Source: a virus
DNA length: 20,047 nucleotides
Direction: 5' to 3' (one strand)
Virus record (IMG/VR): IMGVR_UViG_3300025769_001148
Coordinates: 1 to 20,047 of that record
Shown here piece by piece: positions 669 to 18,867 of the stretch (position 1 is its first letter; each line of letters opens with the position of its first letter). Position numbers and translations under genes: made by a program. The notes beneath the pieces are model-generated. The model made no database searches and was not told where the DNA came from. It worked only from the letters and a program-made list of their open reading frames with translations.

Positions 669-681
669 GTTAGGATAGGTT

Positions 682-699
682 GGGGGGCTTCGGCCCCCT
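682..699 (+). terminator. C(UUCG)G hairpin after the capsid gene
   Basis: Six consecutive base pairs (683-688 with 693-698), plus a possible G-U pair at 682/699, close a TTCG tetraloop at 689-692. The C(UUCG)G loop is unusually stable. There is no long T tract after it (the next bases are gactacttatt), so it may be a weak or partial terminator, or a 3' stabiliser of capsid mRNA, rather than a full stop. Confidence 0.65.
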
Positions 700-710
700 G
701 ACTACTTATT

Positions 711-7676: not shown

Positions 7677-9541
7677 TGGCTGCTGTTAGTGTAAGTTTTA
7701 ACGGAACCAGATTAAACGACTCCGACTCTAATACGGGTTGGGGAAACTTTAATATTGGTGGTGGTTCTCCCGCATCTGAGCCTGCTAACGCCTATCAGCG
7801 TTCTACGGGTTCGGCCTCTACTGTTGGCGCAGTTGGTAAGAAAATAAACTCTACCACTGCTCGACAGGGTGTGGATTATGTGGGCACTTCTGTTGACTTC
7901 ACCGCAGCAGCTAATCGTCTATGGTATTGTAAAGTCTATGTTGCAGATGGCTTTAATGTGAACTCTACTTGGGGAGTAGAGGTTGCTATGGGTTCTGCAA
8001 ATACGTCAAATTCCCATAGATACAATATCGCGGGAAGTGGTGCTAATCGCTCTGTGTATAGTTCTTATCCTCCACAGGGCGGTTACATCATTACCTGTAT
8101 TGACCCTACTATTGACTCCTGGGCAGAGACAGCAGATGACGGCGGGGCTTTTGATCAGACCTCTGTTGTTTGGTATGCCGTAGGTGCGCAGTTTGCCACT
8201 GGTGAGGCTAAGTCAGAAAACGTAGCAATGGATGCTATTGATTACGGGACAGGGCTTACCTTGGTAGGTGGTGATGGTGGGGATACTGATGGTAAGTATA
8301 CCGACTTTGTAGATTTTGATCAGAACGACATTGACAAAAGATATGGTGCAGCAATAGGAAACGGTGATGCTGTAATCTTTAGAGGTATTGCTACTTTAGG
8401 TAGTGCTACTGCTACCGAATTTACCGATACTACCTCTGTTGTTACATTCCCCGATGGTTATCATAGTGCTGGGTTATTCGGTGTTAACGCTGATATACAG
8501 AATGCCAGCACACTTATCACAGATGGTGCACTTTTAATTAGTAACGGCTCTACAAGTATTGAGGATACCAGGGCTGACTATACGGTGAGTGGAACAAGTG
8601 GAACATTCTCCGCTTCTCACCAGATTCGTAACTTTAGAAACATAACCTATACGTCCGTATGTGATGTAGAAAACGCAGACATTGAGTGTCAACTATTAAC
8701 TCAAAACAGTGCAAATATCTCTAATACGACAATTAGGACTAATTCTTTGTCAGGTGTTGCTTGCTTGCAAGACCCGACCCTTGGGACAACTACTGATCTC
8801 AATAATGTGGACTTTATTCAATCTGGCGTAGGCCATGCGATTGAGTTAGCGACCACTAACGGTGATTTTACTTTAACGAACATAACCTTCACTGGATACG
8901 GTTCTGATACAGCTAATGACGCGGCAATATACGTCTCTGCTACTACCGGAACTACGACTATTAACTACACTGGCGCAGCCCCTACAGTTAGAAGTGCTGG
9001 AGCTGCTATAGAATTGGTAGGTAATCCTGTTACTTTAAGTATCAATGTTAAAAACAGTTCAGGGGCTAATATACAGAACTCAAGAGTTTTAGTTGAAACT
9101 GCTGCAAGTGCTACGGGCGGGGAACCTTTCGAGGAGTCCGTATCTATCAGCCAAAACGCTGGAACTGCTACGGTAAGCCACACTGGTCACGGTATGACTA
9201 CTGGTGATGTTATGGTGATACGCGGCGCGCAGCCAGACGGGTATAATAAGGCTGCTATAATTACAGTAACTGGAGTAGATAACTATACTTACAGTGTTAA
9301 CTCGGCCCTATCTTCCCCTGCTACGGGTACGCCTGTAGCTTCGTTTGCCCCAATATCAGGTCTTACAGATGCTAATGGGGACATTAGTGCGACAAGGACT
9401 TGGAATGCAAATCAGTCCTTAAAGGGTGTGGCGAGAAAGGGTAATACTTCTTCGCCTTTCCTAAAGCCTGCGGAGTTCACACAATCTATCAGCTCTAGTA
9501 ACGGTTTAGCTGTTAACTTAGTTCAACAACCTGACGAATAG
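7676..9541 (+). CDS. Large beta-helix-like virion protein with an FCCH-like C-terminal domain
   Basis: This is a 621-aa protein, starting in the TAATG overlap with the 54-aa gene. Residues 1-200 look like a carbohydrate-binding or jelly-roll type domain (SVSFNGTRLNDSDSNTGWGN, several Trp/Tyr). Residues about 270-450 show repeated short strands and Asn/Thr/Ile-rich turns (NADIQNASTLITDGAL, NISNTTIRTNSLSGV, DLNNVDFIQSG, DFTLTNITFTGYG) typical of a right-handed beta helix. Residues about 486-559 (SISQNAGTATVSHTGHGMTT with GDVMVIRGA and NYTYSV) resemble the FCCH-like domain recurring in phage tail proteins. The end carries a Gly/Asp module found in virion carboxy-terminal parts. I infer a tail or capsid appendage, possibly glycan-binding. 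The stop overlaps the GGAGG of the next gene. Confidence 0.65.
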   Translation: MAAVSVSFNGTRLNDSDSNTGWGNFNIGGGSPASEPANAYQRSTGSASTVGAVGKKINSTTARQGVDYVGTSVDFTAAANRLWYCKVYVADGFNVNSTWGVEVAMGSANTSNSHRYNIAGSGANRSVYSSYPPQGGYIITCIDPTIDSWAETADDGGAFDQTSVVWYAVGAQFATGEAKSENVAMDAIDYGTGLTLVGGDGGDTDGKYTDFVDFDQNDIDKRYGAAIGNGDAVIFRGIATLGSATATEFTDTTSVVTFPDGYHSAGLFGVNADIQNASTLITDGALLISNGSTSIEDTRADYTVSGTSGTFSASHQIRNFRNITYTSVCDVENADIECQLLTQNSANISNTTIRTNSLSGVACLQDPTLGTTTDLNNVDFIQSGVGHAIELATTNGDFTLTNITFTGYGSDTANDAAIYVSATTGTTTINYTGAAPTVRSAGAAIELVGNPVTLSINVKNSSGANIQNSRVLVETAASATGGEPFEESVSISQNAGTATVSHTGHGMTTGDVMVIRGAQPDGYNKAAIITVTGVDNYTYSVNSALSSPATGTPVASFAPISGLTDANGDISATRTWNANQSLKGVARKGNTSSPFLKPAEFTQSISSSNGLAVNLVQQPDE

Positions 9542-9547
9542 GAGGAA
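9541..9547 (+). promoter_or_regulatory. Strong ribosome site deciding a GTG start
   Basis: GGAGGAA begins on the last base of the upstream TAG. The GGAGG core (9541-9545) lies 6 bases before GTG 9552, making it the strongest Shine-Dalgarno sequence in the block and supporting the GTG as the true start. Confidence 0.7.
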
Positions 9548-9551
9548 TATC

Positions 9552-9839
9552 GTGAGTTTTGGAAGTTCTAGCAAAGATCCTGGAGAAATGACCAGGGCAG
9601 AAGAGATCGCGGCCCATGTCCGTAGTAAGTCTGCAACTGTAGAAGGAGTACACCAAATGCTCCAAGTACAGGCCCAGCAGATAGAAACGATCAGACAGGA
9701 CGTAGCAGGTCTTCACATGGCCTACAAGACTCTTAGAGAAGAGTTTAGTCAGTTCCAGGCCGCAAGGCATAGAGAATTGTCTATGAAGGTTAACGGCGGC
9801 TCTACGACCCCTGAAGACGATGGCCTAATGGATAGGTAA
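9552..9839 (+). CDS. Small coiled-coil protein
   Basis: This encodes 95 aa from a GTG start chosen because of the GGAGG just upstream. After a short polar N-terminus (MSFGSSSKDPGEMTRAEEIA), residues about 20-78 are predicted to be one long amphipathic helix with heptad-like spacing (VHQMLQVQAQQIETIRQDVA, LREEFSQFQAARHRELS). The tail, KVNGGSTTPEDDGLMDR, is disordered and acidic. The helix would readily form a dimer or trimer. Such short coiled-coil proteins occur in phage structural blocks as fibre trimerisation factors or scaffold-like helpers, but nothing here decides the role. Its stop overlaps the next start (TAATG). Confidence 0.65.
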   Translation: MSFGSSSKDPGEMTRAEEIAAHVRSKSATVEGVHQMLQVQAQQIETIRQDVAGLHMAYKTLREEFSQFQAARHRELSMKVNGGSTTPEDDGLMDR

Positions 9840-11429: not shown

Positions 11430-12076
11430 TGACATACTTAGACTTAATTAACAACGTCCTCCGTAGACTGAGAGAAGATACAGTAGATACTGTTAACTCT
11501 ACTACTTACTCTAGTCTTATTGGCGATTTAGTAAATGATGCCAAGAAGATAGTTGAGAACTCTTTTGATTGGACTGCGTTAAGGGACTCGATAGTAGTAA
11601 ACACTGTAGACGGGACTAATCAATATTCTCTAACAGGCAGTGGTGACTTGGCCGTAGTTAAGGACGTAATGAACACTACAGCTAAGAAGTTTATGCACCA
11701 GAGAAGTCAGTCATTTTTTAACAATGTTAACTACAATACTTCTCCGGTATCAGGATCACCTGATTACTTTACCTTTGTGGGGATAGACTCTAATCAAGAT
11801 TTAACAGTCCAGCTATACCCTAATCCTGACGCTGCTTATACGATTAGGTTTGACGTATCTGTACCTCAAGCTGACTTATCTACTGACTCGGATAGACTTT
11901 CAGTACCCGTTAATCCTGTTATCCAACTAGCCTACGCTATGGCTTTGAGGGAAAGGGGTGAGACAGGTGGACAGAGTGCTGCGGAGCAATTTGCTGTAGC
12001 CTCTACCGCTTTGTCTGATGCTATAAGTTTTGACGCTAATCGCTATCCATCTGAGTTGACTTTTGTGGTGACATAA
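11429..12076 (+). CDS. Head-tail adaptor, T7 gp11 / P22 gp4-like (tail tubular protein A)
   Basis: This is a 215-aa protein. The N-terminus MTYLDLINNVLRRLRE followed by a helix (YSSLIGDLVNDAKKIVENSF, with a WTALR after it) is characteristic of the gp11/gp4-type adaptor that docks beneath the portal ring. The middle is strand-rich (QYSLTG, LTVQLYPNPD, YTIRFDVSVPQADL) and the C-terminal helical part has NPVIQLAYAMALRERGETGG, also typical. Family proteins of podoviruses are about 165-200 aa, so the length fits. Placement just before the large tail protein matches gene order in T7-like and P22-like phages. It is coupled to its neighbours by TAATG at both ends. Confidence 0.8.
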   Translation: MTYLDLINNVLRRLREDTVDTVNSTTYSSLIGDLVNDAKKIVENSFDWTALRDSIVVNTVDGTNQYSLTGSGDLAVVKDVMNTTAKKFMHQRSQSFFNNVNYNTSPVSGSPDYFTFVGIDSNQDLTVQLYPNPDAAYTIRFDVSVPQADLSTDSDRLSVPVNPVIQLAYAMALRERGETGGQSAAEQFAVASTALSDAISFDANRYPSELTFVVT

Positions 12077-13605
12077 TGGCCCAAGCTCTACAAGACATAA
12101 CCATAACGGCTCCTGGGTTTGCTGGAGTAAACACCCAAGACGCACCGTTAGCACAAGATCCTACTTTTGCGTCAGTTGCAGATAACTGCATTATTGACAA
12201 AGAGGGACGGGTTGCTGCGCGTAAAGGTTATGAAATGGTATCTACCAACGGGGCTTCTGTATTGGGAAGTTCTGAAGGGATTACTGCGGTTCACCAGTTC
12301 AGAGATTCTACCGGAACTGAAATTATCCTATCCGCTGGAAATAACAAAGTGTTTGTCGGTGATACCACTTTGGTAGATAACACTCCTGCTGGATATACAA
12401 TTACCGATGATAACTGGAAGATCGTAAGTTTTAATGATCACGCCTACTTTTTTCAGAGAGGGCAGGAGCCTTTACTCTATCACGATCCTGTTGGGAACAT
12501 TGAAGTTATGTCCCAACACGTTCAGGCCCAAGGAATCCCACCTCAAGGTAACGAAGTCCTAGCAGCTTTTGGTAGATTGTGGGTGGCCGATTTTAATACA
12601 GATAAGTCTACTATTTACTGGAGTGACCTCTTAAATGGGCATGATTGGTCTGGAGGATCTACGGGTTCAATAGACATATCTAAGGTATGGCCTAATGGTT
12701 ATGACGAAATCGTAGCTTTAGCTGCTCATAATGGGTTCTTAGTTATCTTTGGTAAGGACTGCATCATTATCTACGATGGTGCTGAATCCCCATCTACCAT
12801 GACTTTAGTGGATACCATAGTCAATATTGGCTGCGTATCTAGGGACTGTGTAGCCTCTACGGGTAAGGACTTAATCTTTTTAGACCGTTCTGGCGTAAGA
12901 AGTTTGTCCAGAACCATTCAGGAAAAGTCCTCACCGATTGGTGATATTTCTAAGAACGTAAACAATGACGTTAAAAATCTTGTATTTAGCTCTACGGGTA
13001 ATATCAAATTACACTACTCTTCTAAAGAAGCGTTTATACTTATTAACTTCCCGTCTCTTCAGTCGATTTACGTCTTTGATACGAGATTTCCTCTCCAGGA
13101 TGGATCTTACAGAGCCACTACATGGTCAAGCATTTCACCATTATGTTTCACTAATCTGGTGGATGACACTATTTATCTTGGCAATGCAGATGGCATCGCT
13201 AAGTATGATACTTACACAGATGGGACAGACTCCTATCAGCTAAGTTACTTTTCCCATCCCTTATCTTTTGGGGATAGCTCAAGACTTAAATTCCTCAAGA
13301 AAGTAAACCTTCTTACTTTCAATGGAGCAGAGGCTACAGTTGTTCTTAACTGGGCCTACGACTATAAGAATGATTACAAGAAGCAAGCGTATACATTGCC
13401 TGCCAATAAAGCTGCTCAGTATAACGTATCCGAATACAACACTACCGCAGAATACTCCTCTTCTTTGAGTCTGATTAACCGCCAGAAGATTAACACTTCT
13501 GGGTCGGGGTCTGTTGTATCTGTAGGAGTGGAAACTACCGTAAACGGTAAATCAATAGCTATTCAAGAACTTAATATTCATGCACTACTTGGAAGGATTG
13601 TATAA
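12076..13605 (+). CDS. Tail nozzle / DNA-stabilisation protein, P22 gp10 or T7 gp12-like (tail tubular protein B)
   Basis: This encodes 509 aa, close to P22 gp10 (about 470) and shorter than T7 gp12 (about 790). It begins with a strand segment (TITAPGFAGVNTQDAPL) and the motif DNCIIDKEGRVAARKGYE, which I associate with this family, and continues as repeated beta blades (LWVADFNTDKSTIYWSD, NGFLVIFGKDCIIIYDG, DLIFLDRSGVRSLSR, SIYVFDTRFPLQDGSYRA). This is expected for a beta-propeller hub that extends the short tail beneath the adaptor and helps retain packaged DNA. Gene order after the adaptor is exactly that of podoviruses. Arginines here are mostly AGA/AGG (10 of 14), unlike the capsid gene. 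Confidence 0.8.
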   Translation: MAQALQDITITAPGFAGVNTQDAPLAQDPTFASVADNCIIDKEGRVAARKGYEMVSTNGASVLGSSEGITAVHQFRDSTGTEIILSAGNNKVFVGDTTLVDNTPAGYTITDDNWKIVSFNDHAYFFQRGQEPLLYHDPVGNIEVMSQHVQAQGIPPQGNEVLAAFGRLWVADFNTDKSTIYWSDLLNGHDWSGGSTGSIDISKVWPNGYDEIVALAAHNGFLVIFGKDCIIIYDGAESPSTMTLVDTIVNIGCVSRDCVASTGKDLIFLDRSGVRSLSRTIQEKSSPIGDISKNVNNDVKNLVFSSTGNIKLHYSSKEAFILINFPSLQSIYVFDTRFPLQDGSYRATTWSSISPLCFTNLVDDTIYLGNADGIAKYDTYTDGTDSYQLSYFSHPLSFGDSSRLKFLKKVNLLTFNGAEATVVLNWAYDYKNDYKKQAYTLPANKAAQYNVSEYNTTAEYSSSLSLINRQKINTSGSGSVVSVGVETTVNGKSIAIQELNIHALLGRIV

Positions 13606-14913: not shown

Positions 14914-16239
14914 ATGGCTATTAACATACAATCTTTATTTAGCGACATCATTGAGACTCCTGCACAGCGTCAAGAACGTATGCTTGGTGAAGGAATACTC
15001 AAGGGGCGGGAGTTAACTAGCGGTCTTACAGGCTTGGCTAGGACTCAGGCCCCTCTAGTATCTGCTTTGGCTATGCAAATGCCCCAGAGACAAGAAGCAA
15101 TGCGCAGGGGTGTTGGTGGAATGTTGGGCCTGGACGTTAGAACTGAGTCTGAGAAGGTTCAGGACGCTCTGAAGGGTCTTGATATAGAAAATATAGACAG
15201 CGCAAGAAGTACAGCAAAGACCCTTCAAGACATGGGTCTTGGCCTTCAAGCCGCCCAGCTTTTGTCTTTAAGCGAACAAAGAATTGCTGAAAAGGCGGCT
15301 AGGGAACGAGAACTTGCTGTTGCAGAAAGTCAAGCAGAAACCGCTAAAACAAGAGCAGCAACTGCTGCTGAACAAGTTGAGCTAGGAAGAGAAGAGCTGC
15401 AATTTAATCAGACGGTTCAAGATGATTTAACCGACTGGAGAAACCAGCAAGTTTCCGAAGCAGAACTTGACAGGGTTCTAAAAAGGGATGAACTTGATTT
15501 AAGAGAAAGGCTCGCTGAGTTGCAGAAGGAAGATTTGGATTCTAGGACAATAGCGGCTTTAAGAGAAGCCGACCTTAGAGCTTCCGATCTTTATGATGAC
15601 GCTAGAGAGACAAGAGCCTTGGCAAAAGAGTTCAATGCAGCAGAAGCCGCTGCTAATTATACTCCTGGAATGGCTGGTGAGATAAATGAGAAATGGAAGG
15701 CCATAACTGGAACACAAGACGAAATAAGTACGTTAAGGAGAAGGTTCAATAAAGTTATCAATGCTGCAACAATGGACGGACTCCCTCCTGGAGCTGCTTC
15801 AGATAAAGATATTGAATTGGCAAGGCAAGGCTTTCCAGACGAAACTTATAGTGCGGAACAAATTGCAAGCTATCTGGCTGGTATGCAGAAATTGTCTTTT
15901 ATTGCAGCAGAAAAAGAGAACGAAAGGCTTAAGTTTTTGAGGCAAAACAATGGCTCTCCAGCAATGATAGATTCTGAAACCAATGAGGTTGTTACTTTCA
16001 ATGATTTCTGGTCTAGTAAAATCAATGATCCTCAATACATTACTTATTTAGAAGAAAAAACTAGCCTTAATTTTATGGATCAAGCCGAAAGAGAGGCCTA
16101 TGACAGGCAATTGCAAAGCAGCAAAAGGCAGCAGCTAGAAGAAGAGCAAAGGCAGCAGCTTGAGCTACAGAGACAAAGGCAAGCAGAATTTGAGCAAACT
16201 CAAAGGTCTGTTAGCTCACCAGGAACATTTAGTTTATAG
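14914..16239 (+). CDS. Internal virion / ejection protein 2, coiled-coil rich
   Basis: This is a 441-aa protein with AAGGA 8 bases before the ATG. The N-terminal 110 residues are helical; residues about 121-226 form a long Glu/Arg/Lys/Ala-rich coiled coil (AEKAARERELAVAESQAETA, ELDRVLKRDELDLRERLAEL). A globular region follows at about 240-395, and the C-terminus (about 398-433) is a Gln/Glu/Arg-rich helix (KRQQLEEEQRQQLELQRQRQ). No membrane segment is clear. Its location between two other helical/membrane-active virion proteins suggests an internal core component. I do not recognise a catalytic domain such as a transglycosylase. Confidence 0.6.
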   Translation: MAINIQSLFSDIIETPAQRQERMLGEGILKGRELTSGLTGLARTQAPLVSALAMQMPQRQEAMRRGVGGMLGLDVRTESEKVQDALKGLDIENIDSARSTAKTLQDMGLGLQAAQLLSLSEQRIAEKAARERELAVAESQAETAKTRAATAAEQVELGREELQFNQTVQDDLTDWRNQQVSEAELDRVLKRDELDLRERLAELQKEDLDSRTIAALREADLRASDLYDDARETRALAKEFNAAEAAANYTPGMAGEINEKWKAITGTQDEISTLRRRFNKVINAATMDGLPPGAASDKDIELARQGFPDETYSAEQIASYLAGMQKLSFIAAEKENERLKFLRQNNGSPAMIDSETNEVVTFNDFWSSKINDPQYITYLEEKTSLNFMDQAEREAYDRQLQSSKRQQLEEEQRQQLELQRQRQAEFEQTQRSVSSPGTFSL

Positions 16240-16248
16240 GATAAGACA

Positions 16249-18120
16249 ATGGCAGACCCTAGAGATTTATTAGGCATTGACCTGTCTACATTAAGTGATG
16301 AGCAGATAGATTCGCTTTATGAGAGAAGGAGAAGGCCAACTAATGTAGAAGGTCTTGAGACTGTAGGTTCTATTGCTGGTGGAATAGCTGCTGGTGCTGC
16401 TGCTGGTACATTGGGTGCTGGCCCAGTTGGAACAGTTATTGGTGGCATTGCTGGTGGCATGGTTGGGGCTTTTGGTGGCGAGCTTCTTGAAGACATAATT
16501 GAAGGAAAAGAAAAAGATTATGTCGGAGCGGCTGAAGAGGCTTTGATTTCTGGTGGCTTTGACGTTGCCACATTGGGTGCTGGCAAATTAGTCAGGCCAG
16601 TGTTTCGGCTAACTGGAGCAAAAGCACTAGGCGATAAATTTGGTCAGCTTATGAATGTTTCTAGGGCTGCTCAAGGAAGCAGGGCTTCTCTTGCCCAAAC
16701 TCAACAACTTCTTCAAGAAGGCGGTGCTTCTCTTAACCCAAGGGCTATTGAAGATGTTGGCTTTATGAGAAAGCTGTTCAATGAAATTGCTGAAGTCGGC
16801 ATGATTTCCAGAAGAAGCTATGAAGCAGACAGGAAGGCTGCGGCTGACGTAATTAAGGGGCATATAGAAGGGTTCTCAAAAGGAGGTCTGACTACTGAAG
16901 ACCTTGGGGAGTCTATGTATTATGTCGTAAATGGTGGCCGTAACGCCGCCAGAGAGTTTTATGGAAAAGAGCTAGACAAGATAATACAAAACGCGCCGAC
17001 AGAATCAGTTTTTCCAACTAACAAGATTGGCTTCAAGATTGGTGATTTCCAAGTCAAGAATATGGACGATACTGGTTCTATTCTTCATAAAGAAACTCAG
17101 AGAATATATGAAGAGTTCAGGGACATAATTGCTCCTGATGGGAAAGCGTTAAAAGTAAATGCACAAACATTGCTAAACCTTCAAAAGCGTCTTAACGGAT
17201 ATATTGATGATGCTATGCCTGGTGGCGCAAGCCAGAACGCGACAGTTGTTAGAGAGCTTACTCAGCTTTCTCAGGCAATCAAGGAAGGGATAGAAGAAAC
17301 TTTAGAGAAGCAAGCTCCAGGAATATACAAAGATTACGCTAATCTAAATTCAACATTCAAAGATCTGACTGAAGGAATACTTCCAGAAGTTAACGCTGGT
17401 CAGTTTAGGCGCGCAGGAAAAGGTGATTTTGATGCGCTTGGTAATATGTTGATAGCTACTGGGAATATCTCAAAGGTTAAGAACTTTATGACCAGTATTG
17501 ATAAGTCCTTTGAAGCCCTAAGAAAATCTGGCTTATTAAAAGAATTACCAAAAGAACTTAGGACAAAGAAGAACGTAAAATCAATATTGAGAGCGTCTTT
17601 CACTAGGAATATGTTTGGTGATTTGACTGATGAAAAGGTCTTTAATCAGGCTACCGTAAATAAATTTAATAGCCCCAAGAACCAGAAGATAATGGCAGCG
17701 ATATACGGGGAAGAATGGCCTCAGTTTAAGAAAGTATTAAATGCTGTGGGCGACTCTCTAAGAACTACTGAGGGAGGCGTACTGTCTTTGGCGTTGAGAG
17801 GTAGGGAAATTAGTGCTGCTCTTGGTGCTGGTGCTATTTTTGGGCTTGGTACGCAAGACCCTGCGGCTGGAGCTACTGCTGCGGCTACCACTGCTTTAGG
17901 TGTTCTGGGATTGCCTCCAGTTCTTTACAGGCTTTCAAAAAGCCCAAGGGCAGTAAACAAGTTGATTGCTTTTGAGAAGAGAGGTTTTAAGCCAAGCGAA
18001 TACACTCCAGAATTTGTTATGTCTTCTTTAGCTAAAATCTTCTCAGAATTAAATGAAGATGACAGAAACGCAATTAAGGAAGAGGCGTATAACGCTGGCG
18101 TCTACAATATTAAACTTTAA
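16249..18120 (+). CDS. Internal virion / ejection protein 3 with glycine-zipper membrane segments
   Basis: This is a 623-aa protein. Residues about 39-80 contain repeated GxxxG-type spacing (GSIAGGIAAGAAAGTLGAG then IGGIAGGMVGAFGG), a glycine zipper able to insert into membranes. A second small-residue hydrophobic region lies at about 511-558 (LRGREISAALGAGAIFGLGT, then ATTALGVLGLPPVLYRL). The centre (about 130-500) is helical, with many Lys/Glu. Glycine zippers at an N-terminus occur in ejection proteins that build the DNA conduit across the host envelope. It ends the late block, with a 67-bp gap to the opposing operon. No lysozyme or protease motif was found by eye. Confidence 0.6.
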   Translation: MADPRDLLGIDLSTLSDEQIDSLYERRRRPTNVEGLETVGSIAGGIAAGAAAGTLGAGPVGTVIGGIAGGMVGAFGGELLEDIIEGKEKDYVGAAEEALISGGFDVATLGAGKLVRPVFRLTGAKALGDKFGQLMNVSRAAQGSRASLAQTQQLLQEGGASLNPRAIEDVGFMRKLFNEIAEVGMISRRSYEADRKAAADVIKGHIEGFSKGGLTTEDLGESMYYVVNGGRNAAREFYGKELDKIIQNAPTESVFPTNKIGFKIGDFQVKNMDDTGSILHKETQRIYEEFRDIIAPDGKALKVNAQTLLNLQKRLNGYIDDAMPGGASQNATVVRELTQLSQAIKEGIEETLEKQAPGIYKDYANLNSTFKDLTEGILPEVNAGQFRRAGKGDFDALGNMLIATGNISKVKNFMTSIDKSFEALRKSGLLKELPKELRTKKNVKSILRASFTRNMFGDLTDEKVFNQATVNKFNSPKNQKIMAAIYGEEWPQFKKVLNAVGDSLRTTEGGVLSLALRGREISAALGAGAIFGLGTQDPAAGATAAATTALGVLGLPPVLYRLSKSPRAVNKLIAFEKRGFKPSEYTPEFVMSSLAKIFSELNEDDRNAIKEEAYNAGVYNIKL

Positions 18121-18125
18121 GTTTC

Positions 18126-18184
18126 GAGGCAGTGCGGCATCCTGGGTTTCCTCCACCCTCGCCTTTGGGTGTCGTACTGACCTC
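18126..18184 (+). ncRNA. Long structured stem between the converging operons
   Basis: Arms 18126-18142 and 18167-18184 form 17 base pairs with one bulged A (18180). Three of the pairs are G-U on the + strand and would be C-A mismatches in - strand RNA, so the fold favours + strand transcripts. Inside, GGGT (18144-18147) pairs with ACCC (18155-18158) around a TTCCTCC loop. A competing short hairpin CACCC/GGGTG (18154-18158 with 18167-18171) is also possible. No T tract follows, so it is not a classical intrinsic terminator. It could be a 3' end element of the late mRNA, or a small RNA; the evidence is structural only. Confidence 0.5.
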
Positions 18185-18187
18185 ACC

Positions 18188-18424
18188 TTAATGTAGATCC
18201 TTATCTATTATCTCTTTGTATCTCATAGAGATGAACATACTGAATAACTCATCTACAGTATTATTCTCCTCCATGAATTCTGAGTAATCCCTCACCATCA
18301 TTGCTAGAGTCCCTATCGCCCTCTGATCGTCCCCCTCCAAAAAGGGCAAGTTGTCGCTCACCCACTTCGCCAGATCTTCTGGTTCCATGGGATCTACCTC
18401 TACAGTCCGGTTTTCCTGTTTCAA
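18188..18424 (-). CDS. Small acidic protein (78 aa), function unknown, TTG start
   Basis: This is the last gene of the - strand operon. The TTG at 18424 is chosen because GGAG lies 9 bases upstream (18434-18437) and no in-frame ATG exists before residue 13. The protein is acidic: EVDPMEPEDLAKWVSDNLPF, DDQRAIGTLAMMVRDYSEFM, ending in MFISMRYKEIIDKDLH. It is predicted to be mostly helical with no motif I can name. It lies 20 bases after the NinG-like gene, so it is in the same transcript. A start at the internal ATG (residue 13) remains possible. Confidence 0.55.
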   Translation of the reverse strand: MKQENRTVEVDPMEPEDLAKWVSDNLPFLEGDDQRAIGTLAMMVRDYSEFMEENNTVDELFSMFISMRYKEIIDKDLH

Positions 18425-18444: not shown

Positions 18445-18867
18445 TTATATTTGTGATTCAAGTTCTTTGTTCTTCTTTCTCAGGTCTTTGATCATATCTT
18501 CTAGGTCAGGTCTGAAGTATTTAACAGGCTTCCTGGAGTCCATTAGCATTTGATCGCAGAAGTCATCCCCGTACATATCCCGCATAAACTTTGAGTAACC
18601 TTCTCTAACGTGAGTCCTATGCCTCATGCCATATTGATTACACCCTTTACACTGGGGATGTATGTTCTCTTCCATAATCTTAGTAGCCTGCTTCCCTCTT
18701 TCTATCCAGTGTCCACCCTGCATATCCTTCCAGTGAAACCACTTATTACATGATACACACTCTATAAACCCACTCTTATCAGCAGCCACCGCAGCCTTCA
18801 ATCTAACGTGCTTCTGTAATAACTTAGCTACATCATCTATCAAAGCCCTAAGTGTTTTCTTTGGCAT
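18445..18867 (-). CDS. NinG-like (Rap-type) recombination protein
   Basis: This is a 140-aa protein. Two CxxC pairs (C37/C40 and C73/C76) bracket the core. Between them is WKDMQGGHWIER (H53), followed by NIHPQC then KGCNQYG, which is the lambda NinG pattern C..C...(H)...R...N.H.QC..CN. NinG/Rap proteins are structure-specific nucleases, related to HNH enzymes, that act on branched DNA in phage recombination. Lambda NinG is about 200 aa, so this is a shorter version. The C-terminus is a charged helix (LEDMIKDLRKKNKELESQI). It starts one base after the DUF3310 stop. A repair, recombination or DNA-end processing role in this operon is consistent. Confidence 0.75.
   Translation of the reverse strand: MPKKTLRALIDDVAKLLQKHVRLKAAVAADKSGFIECVSCNKWFHWKDMQGGHWIERGKQATKIMEENIHPQCKGCNQYGMRHRTHVREGYSKFMRDMYGDDFCDQMLMDSRKPVKYFRPDLEDMIKDLRKKNKELESQI

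Follow-up and report, generated by a model that had tools for sequence, protein, structure and literature searches.

Stem-loops known as PeSLs are tied to gene shuffling in T4-type phages (Arbiol et al. 2010; Comeau et al. 2014; as cited in PMC4503421 and PMC3950731), and short conserved stretches, termed boundary sequences, lie at the junctions of phage modules (PMC3029335). At the RNA level, 3′ exonucleases keep degrading until a stable stem-loop is encountered (PMC8297930). In titles and opening lines of abstracts from the literature on phage hairpin and boundary elements, we found no description of the element reported here, a hairpin between converging operons that we read, at a probability of about 0.55, as the 3′-terminal stabilising stem-loop of a late plus-strand mRNA, with a constancy that lets it serve as an anchor of homology when modules are exchanged.

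The window, by which we mean the whole stretch of DNA analysed, is the entire virus record IMGVR_UViG_3300025769_001148 (20,047 bases). Late genes occupy its plus strand up to position 18120 and early-type genes its minus strand from 18188. The element fills the whole intergenic gap (18121–18187, plus strand), between the TAA of the plus-strand gene at 18118–18120 and the minus-strand TAA at 18190–18188, exactly as an initial annotation made from this single sequence had placed it, and other copies are likewise placed. Its 17-bp stem pairs a 5′ arm at 18126–18142 with a 3′ arm at 18167–18184, interrupted by a single bulged A at 18180, and encloses a 24-nt loop region (18143–18166) containing the word UUCCUCC at 18148–18154, which is predicted to be unpaired with a probability of 0.99–1.0. 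Three stem pairs are G-U (18134 with 18175, 18137 with 18172 and 18140 with 18169) and turn into A-C on the minus strand, leaving 14 of 17 pairs there; the annotated fold, with one bulge and wobble pairs compatible with the plus strand alone, was thus reproduced. Folding energies of both strands against shuffled sequence bear out the strand difference: positions 18111–18197 reach −34.9 kcal/mol on the plus strand (z −4.97), a value matched by 0 of 200 shuffles, whereas 27 of 200 match the −23.7 kcal/mol of the minus strand (z −1.18). When 7,992 windows of 70 nt were folded across both strands, the plus-strand window 18126–18195 ranked second among the separated best windows.

Rfam 15 models gave no match anywhere in the window up to an E value of 5, no tRNA or tmRNA was found in the window, and a scan covering sigma-70-type promoters listed no site between 17700 and 18500. 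Integron attC sites end in RYYYAAC and GTTRRRY; the edges of the element, read by eye, lack these ends in this orientation, and we rejected that identification. Elsewhere in the window, a hairpin with a UUCG-type loop (678–703, plus strand; tail ACTTATTATG) follows an ORF ending at 668, and a terminator-like hairpin followed by TTTTT (18363–18344, minus strand) lies inside a 78-aa early gene.

Copies of the element were collected from IMG/VR by searches with complementary biases. An exact 19-base word returned 44 contigs; a looser pattern, with much of the stem base fixed and the loop free, returned 55 stretches, of which L114 was dropped as chance; and a loop-based pattern, with the stem base free, returned 57, adding the variant L118, with L116 and L117 dropped as chance. 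Part of the conservation of the stem base is built in by these search patterns, and the loop pattern is biased the reverse way. Including the window, there are 56 copies (55 other contigs) with 11 distinct sequences, falling into clade A (47 copies) and clade B (9 copies), which have most of the stem and UUCCUCC in common and little else of the loop; both clades keep the word among the 55 copies obtained by a pattern that put no constraint on the loop. A search with the Rap-like protein, which fixes nothing in the element, returned 53 loci and gave the first clade B copies. Among the 30 loci at 68% identity or more, five break off no more than 40 nt past the gene and 24 of the other 25 carry the element, the lone exception being L025, in which about 1 kb follows the gene; at 34–47% identity the element is present in 0 of 23.

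Each contig, being a partial genome, contains one match. The contigs belong to one kind of phage: of ten genes of the window, at least one was recognised on the expected side of the element in 54 of 56, and none in L099 and L102, whose flanks are short. Six phage records (three Pelagibacter, two Roseobacter and one Microcystis phage) contain weak relatives, at 22–33% identity, of a late protein of the window (12076–13605). A blastn search of 50,697 phage records gave no match to the 70-nt element at an E value of 1, and 21 pattern matches among genomes of 84,980 species were rejected as chance, having 9–15 of the 17 stem pairs. A covariance model run on 68 chosen sources found the window and L118 only, each also weakly on the opposite strand, with L115 at an E value of 7.9. 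In 16 loci spanning whole contigs (for example L076, L078, L092, L096 and L105) no more than 330 nt of contig remain to the right of the stem, perhaps because assemblies break where one conserved stretch has differing neighbours.

Nearly all stem changes among the copies preserve plus-strand pairing. In an alignment of ten distinct sequences, leaving out L118, 169 of 170 stem cells are paired; twelve pairs are invariant, four vary on one side only, giving wobble-type pairs, one switches from G-C to A-U, and L113 breaks a single pair. This degree of pairing was matched in 1 of 500 shuffles, as was the covariation score, both figures being weakened by the kinship of the sequences. The compensatory change in relatives that the initial annotation named as a check amounts to one pair in one clade split, and two further measures do not rise above chance, since 360 of 500 shuffles equal the observed number of pairs changed on both sides and 500 of 500 that of further pair types. 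On the other hand, G.U occurs at five pair positions and A.C at none (one-sided p 0.03), and the plus strand folds better than the minus strand in all 11 distinct copies, both of which point to RNA. The annotation's proposal of selection for plus-strand RNA structure is thus modestly supported by the aligned copies. Its inner 4-bp hairpin fares less well: the GGGU:ACCC pairing has a probability of about 0.08 against about 0.89 for a competing inner pairing, and the inner region is not common to clade B; we rejected this hairpin as a conserved part. A minus-strand peptide was also rejected; clade A has GGAGGAA and an ATG for a very short frame, but among seven copies inspected neither start nor frame is retained in clade B, and the peptide runs into whichever gene adjoins.

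The genes on either side of the element are variable. In the window it follows the last late gene (16249–18120, plus strand; 623 aa), in whose place unrelated genes stand in other copies, and it is followed by the last early gene (18188–18424, minus strand; 78 aa), which has no family match and from which accessory genes separate the element in other contigs. Next comes a NinG/Rap-like endonuclease gene (18445–18867, minus strand), and the early-type minus-strand genes also encode a DUF3310 protein and an exonuclease. The left neighbours fall into seven protein groups and the right neighbours into four, apart from short ends, with left and right types occurring in many combinations; seven right flanks end before any gene can be shown. 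The late gene at 14914–16239 (plus strand) lies upstream of the exchanged block, and in many contigs only about 90–110 of its residues match. Left frames reach their stop 4–7 nt before the stem in 54 of 55 copies (L081 is cut by its contig start), and right frames stop between 3 nt past the stem and 2 nt inside it.

One accessory family, R2 (120–146 aa), lies directly against the right edge of the element (L060, 3885–4256, minus strand; L063, 3188–3547, plus strand; L068, 3596–4033, plus strand; L102, 19–384, plus strand; and others). Eight distinct members have invariant D35, E49-x-K51 and G60-Q61, which we take to be a PD-(D/E)xK-like pattern, and on this motif R2 may be a nuclease. The members tried gave no Pfam, PHROG or PADLOC match, AlphaFold models reached a mean pLDDT of 73.3 at best and 35–49 in the other four, and Foldseek returned no match with E ≤ 0.001, its first rows including a Cas4-family protein and a Holliday junction resolvase at E values of about 0.07. 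Also to the right of the element, L090 encodes a MUG113/T5orf172-type protein, presumably GIY-YIG-like, and L075 a family 2 glycosyltransferase with very similar ORFs in L071 and L118.

Pairwise comparison of flanks, which lies beyond the reach of a single-sequence annotation, shows that the element is a constant joint between two exchanged gene blocks, barring assembly chimeras, which could be responsible for part of the mosaic joins. Among 1,378 contig pairs with at least 40 nt of both flanks, 15 pairs (15 contigs) are at least 97% alike on the left and unrelated on the right, and 53 pairs (28 contigs) are at least 97% alike on the right and unrelated on the left; these 15 and 53 pairs are non-independent. 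In homology-block comparisons of eight chosen pairs, the edges of the blocks lie no more than about 6 nt from the stem. L086 and L071, for example, are 94.6% identical upstream, then differ by an unrelated block of about 3 kb, and are 98.2% identical from about 6 nt before the stem onward, while L067 and L068 are 97.2% identical to about 5 nt past the stem, where L068 has a 440-nt insertion, and 97.8% identical thereafter. Variants of the element shift gradually from left-linked to right-linked: among left-sharing pairs, differences occur in the loop in 8 of 15 but in the 8 nt preceding the stem in 0 of 15, and among right-sharing pairs these 8 nt differ in 32 of 53 but stem column 47 in 1 of 53. 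These patterns point to crossovers inside the element, with the pairs again non-independent. Furthermore, for pairs with flanks of 60–97% identity, the element is more conserved than the right flank in 235 of 239 and than the left flank in 84 of 105.

Relatives lacking the element indicate that it is dispensable. In L057 the last late gene is 80% identical to that of the window, yet the element is absent. A search with one last-late-gene family found 27 contigs, of which 26 were inspected: five have the element, all already counted; seven have a different hairpin right after the stop (L127–L131, L134 and L143); three have short different hairpins (L124, L136 and L137); three, also close relatives, have overlapping stops and no hairpin (L120–L122); and in eight a same-strand reading frame continues. 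A core-pattern search for one of these other hairpins, the sister hairpin, whose sequence is unrelated to the element and which lacks UUCCUCC, returned 19 contigs, five of them already seen. Read by eye, TAA or TAG directly precedes it in all 19, and its left flanks and left genes are of seven types; left flanks are unrelated in 142 of 171 pairs, whose right flanks are at least 90% identical. It is more stable on the plus strand in all 14 distinct sequences. Weighing against it, two pair positions show A.C and four others mismatches, the pairs having been taken from one member's plus-strand fold (G.U 6, A.C 2, p 0.14), and the sister hairpin overlaps an open reading frame.

The late-mRNA 3′ element suggested by the initial annotation fits the position between converging stop codons, and it also agrees with the unlike hairpins that some relatives carry there; the role itself we infer from sequence. 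In the proposed mechanism, polymerase would copy the hairpin after the last late stop codon and, as there is no U tract on the plus strand, release would probably be factor-dependent and come slightly later, in a C-rich antisense stretch. C exceeds G in the 200 nt past the stem in 48 of 48 copies on the plus strand, and also in 47 of 55 on the minus strand, so that the excess may only mirror antisense coding. Exonucleases would then trim the RNA back to the stem, giving the late mRNA a defined, stable end, and this function would hold about 58 nt nearly constant. Such constancy could supply the homology for crossovers that swap the last late gene or genes to its left and the accessory genes to its right, plain homology sufficing with no dedicated enzyme. 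Support is limited to 11 distinct sequences, two clades and one compensatory pair, and against a plain stabilising stem stands the unpaired loop word, which is more conserved than such a stem needs.

That loop word speaks for a small RNA derived by processing of the late 3′ UTR, in which UUCCUCC would pair with Shine-Dalgarno sequences of phage or host mRNAs. Both clades keep the word, unpaired, while the remaining loop differs, and the sole plus-strand GGAGGAA of the window (9541–9554), complementary to it, lies just before a 95-aa ORF with a GTG start. We nevertheless consider this unlikely, as most start codons listed in the window have other, weaker purine stretches, the sister hairpin does without the word, and a 7-mer common to two loops is modest evidence. 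An ordinary intrinsic terminator of one or both operons, although it would suit a strong GC-rich stem between converging operons, is very unlikely: the 8 nt past the stem contain 1–4 T on the plus strand in all 56 copies and 1–3 on the minus strand in 49, the 24-nt loop is long, and an automatic scan of the window did not list the element. The annotation was right that the plus strand has no U tract, and plus-strand intrinsic termination is rejected on that ground. The other seven copies (L104–L109 and L111, left of the stem) have 5 T in these 8 nt on the minus strand, where a minus-strand role is possible; judged by their flanks, they appear to belong to clade B and to have a left flank ending in ACAATC. 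The long stem with its one bulge might recall an RNase III-type processing site between transcripts, which we regard as highly improbable since the genes converge rather than follow one another, and cleavage would separate nothing useful on the plus strand.

Another reading places the function in DNA. A hairpin or cruciform recognised by a Rap-like or accessory nuclease, with the RNA form incidental, would explain why exchange is centred on the element, why a NinG/Rap-like gene lies nearby and why nuclease-like genes abut the element in several contigs; we find it an unlikely account, because the G.U over A.C bias and plus-strand preference point to RNA and plain homology accounts for breakpoints spread inside the element. 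Quite unlikely, too, is a combination of both roles, in which the hairpin would be a dedicated docking site for gene exchange in this phage group, PD-(D/E)xK-like enzymes encoded directly against it (in one contig also a GIY-YIG-like protein nearby) or the neighbouring Rap-like enzyme would act there and drive turnover of the last late and accessory genes, and the RNA form would close the late transcript. If true, transcript-end control and module swapping would be combined in a single small element.

As a late-mRNA 3′ hairpin and homology anchor, the element would offer a natural case, in uncultured marine phages, of a structured operon-end RNA that stays constant at the joint around which genes are exchanged; a second lineage apparently uses a different hairpin in the same role. 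The idea that module borders in phages are set by transcript-end hairpins thereby becomes open to test, and variable last late genes and accessory genes can be sought beside the element. Anti-Shine-Dalgarno small RNAs of alphaproteobacteria carry a CCUCC-type word in a hairpin loop, as the element does, but the element has no Rfam match and occupies a different place. With 3′ hairpins that block exonucleases it has in common a stable predicted stem without a U tract just after a stop codon, and differs in that its sequence and loop word are more conserved than that role needs. PeSLs and the element are both conserved stem-loops associated with gene shuffling between related phages; PeSLs, however, lie among early genes, join the stem-loop to an early promoter and occur several times per genome, whereas the element lies between converging operons, has no listed promoter-like site of the sigma-70 type inside or beside it and was found once per contig in partial genomes. 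It likewise resembles boundary sequences in being conserved between otherwise unrelated modules with crossovers apparently inside it (among non-independent pairs), and departs from them in being a predicted structured RNA at an operon end, where a sister lineage has an unrelated hairpin.
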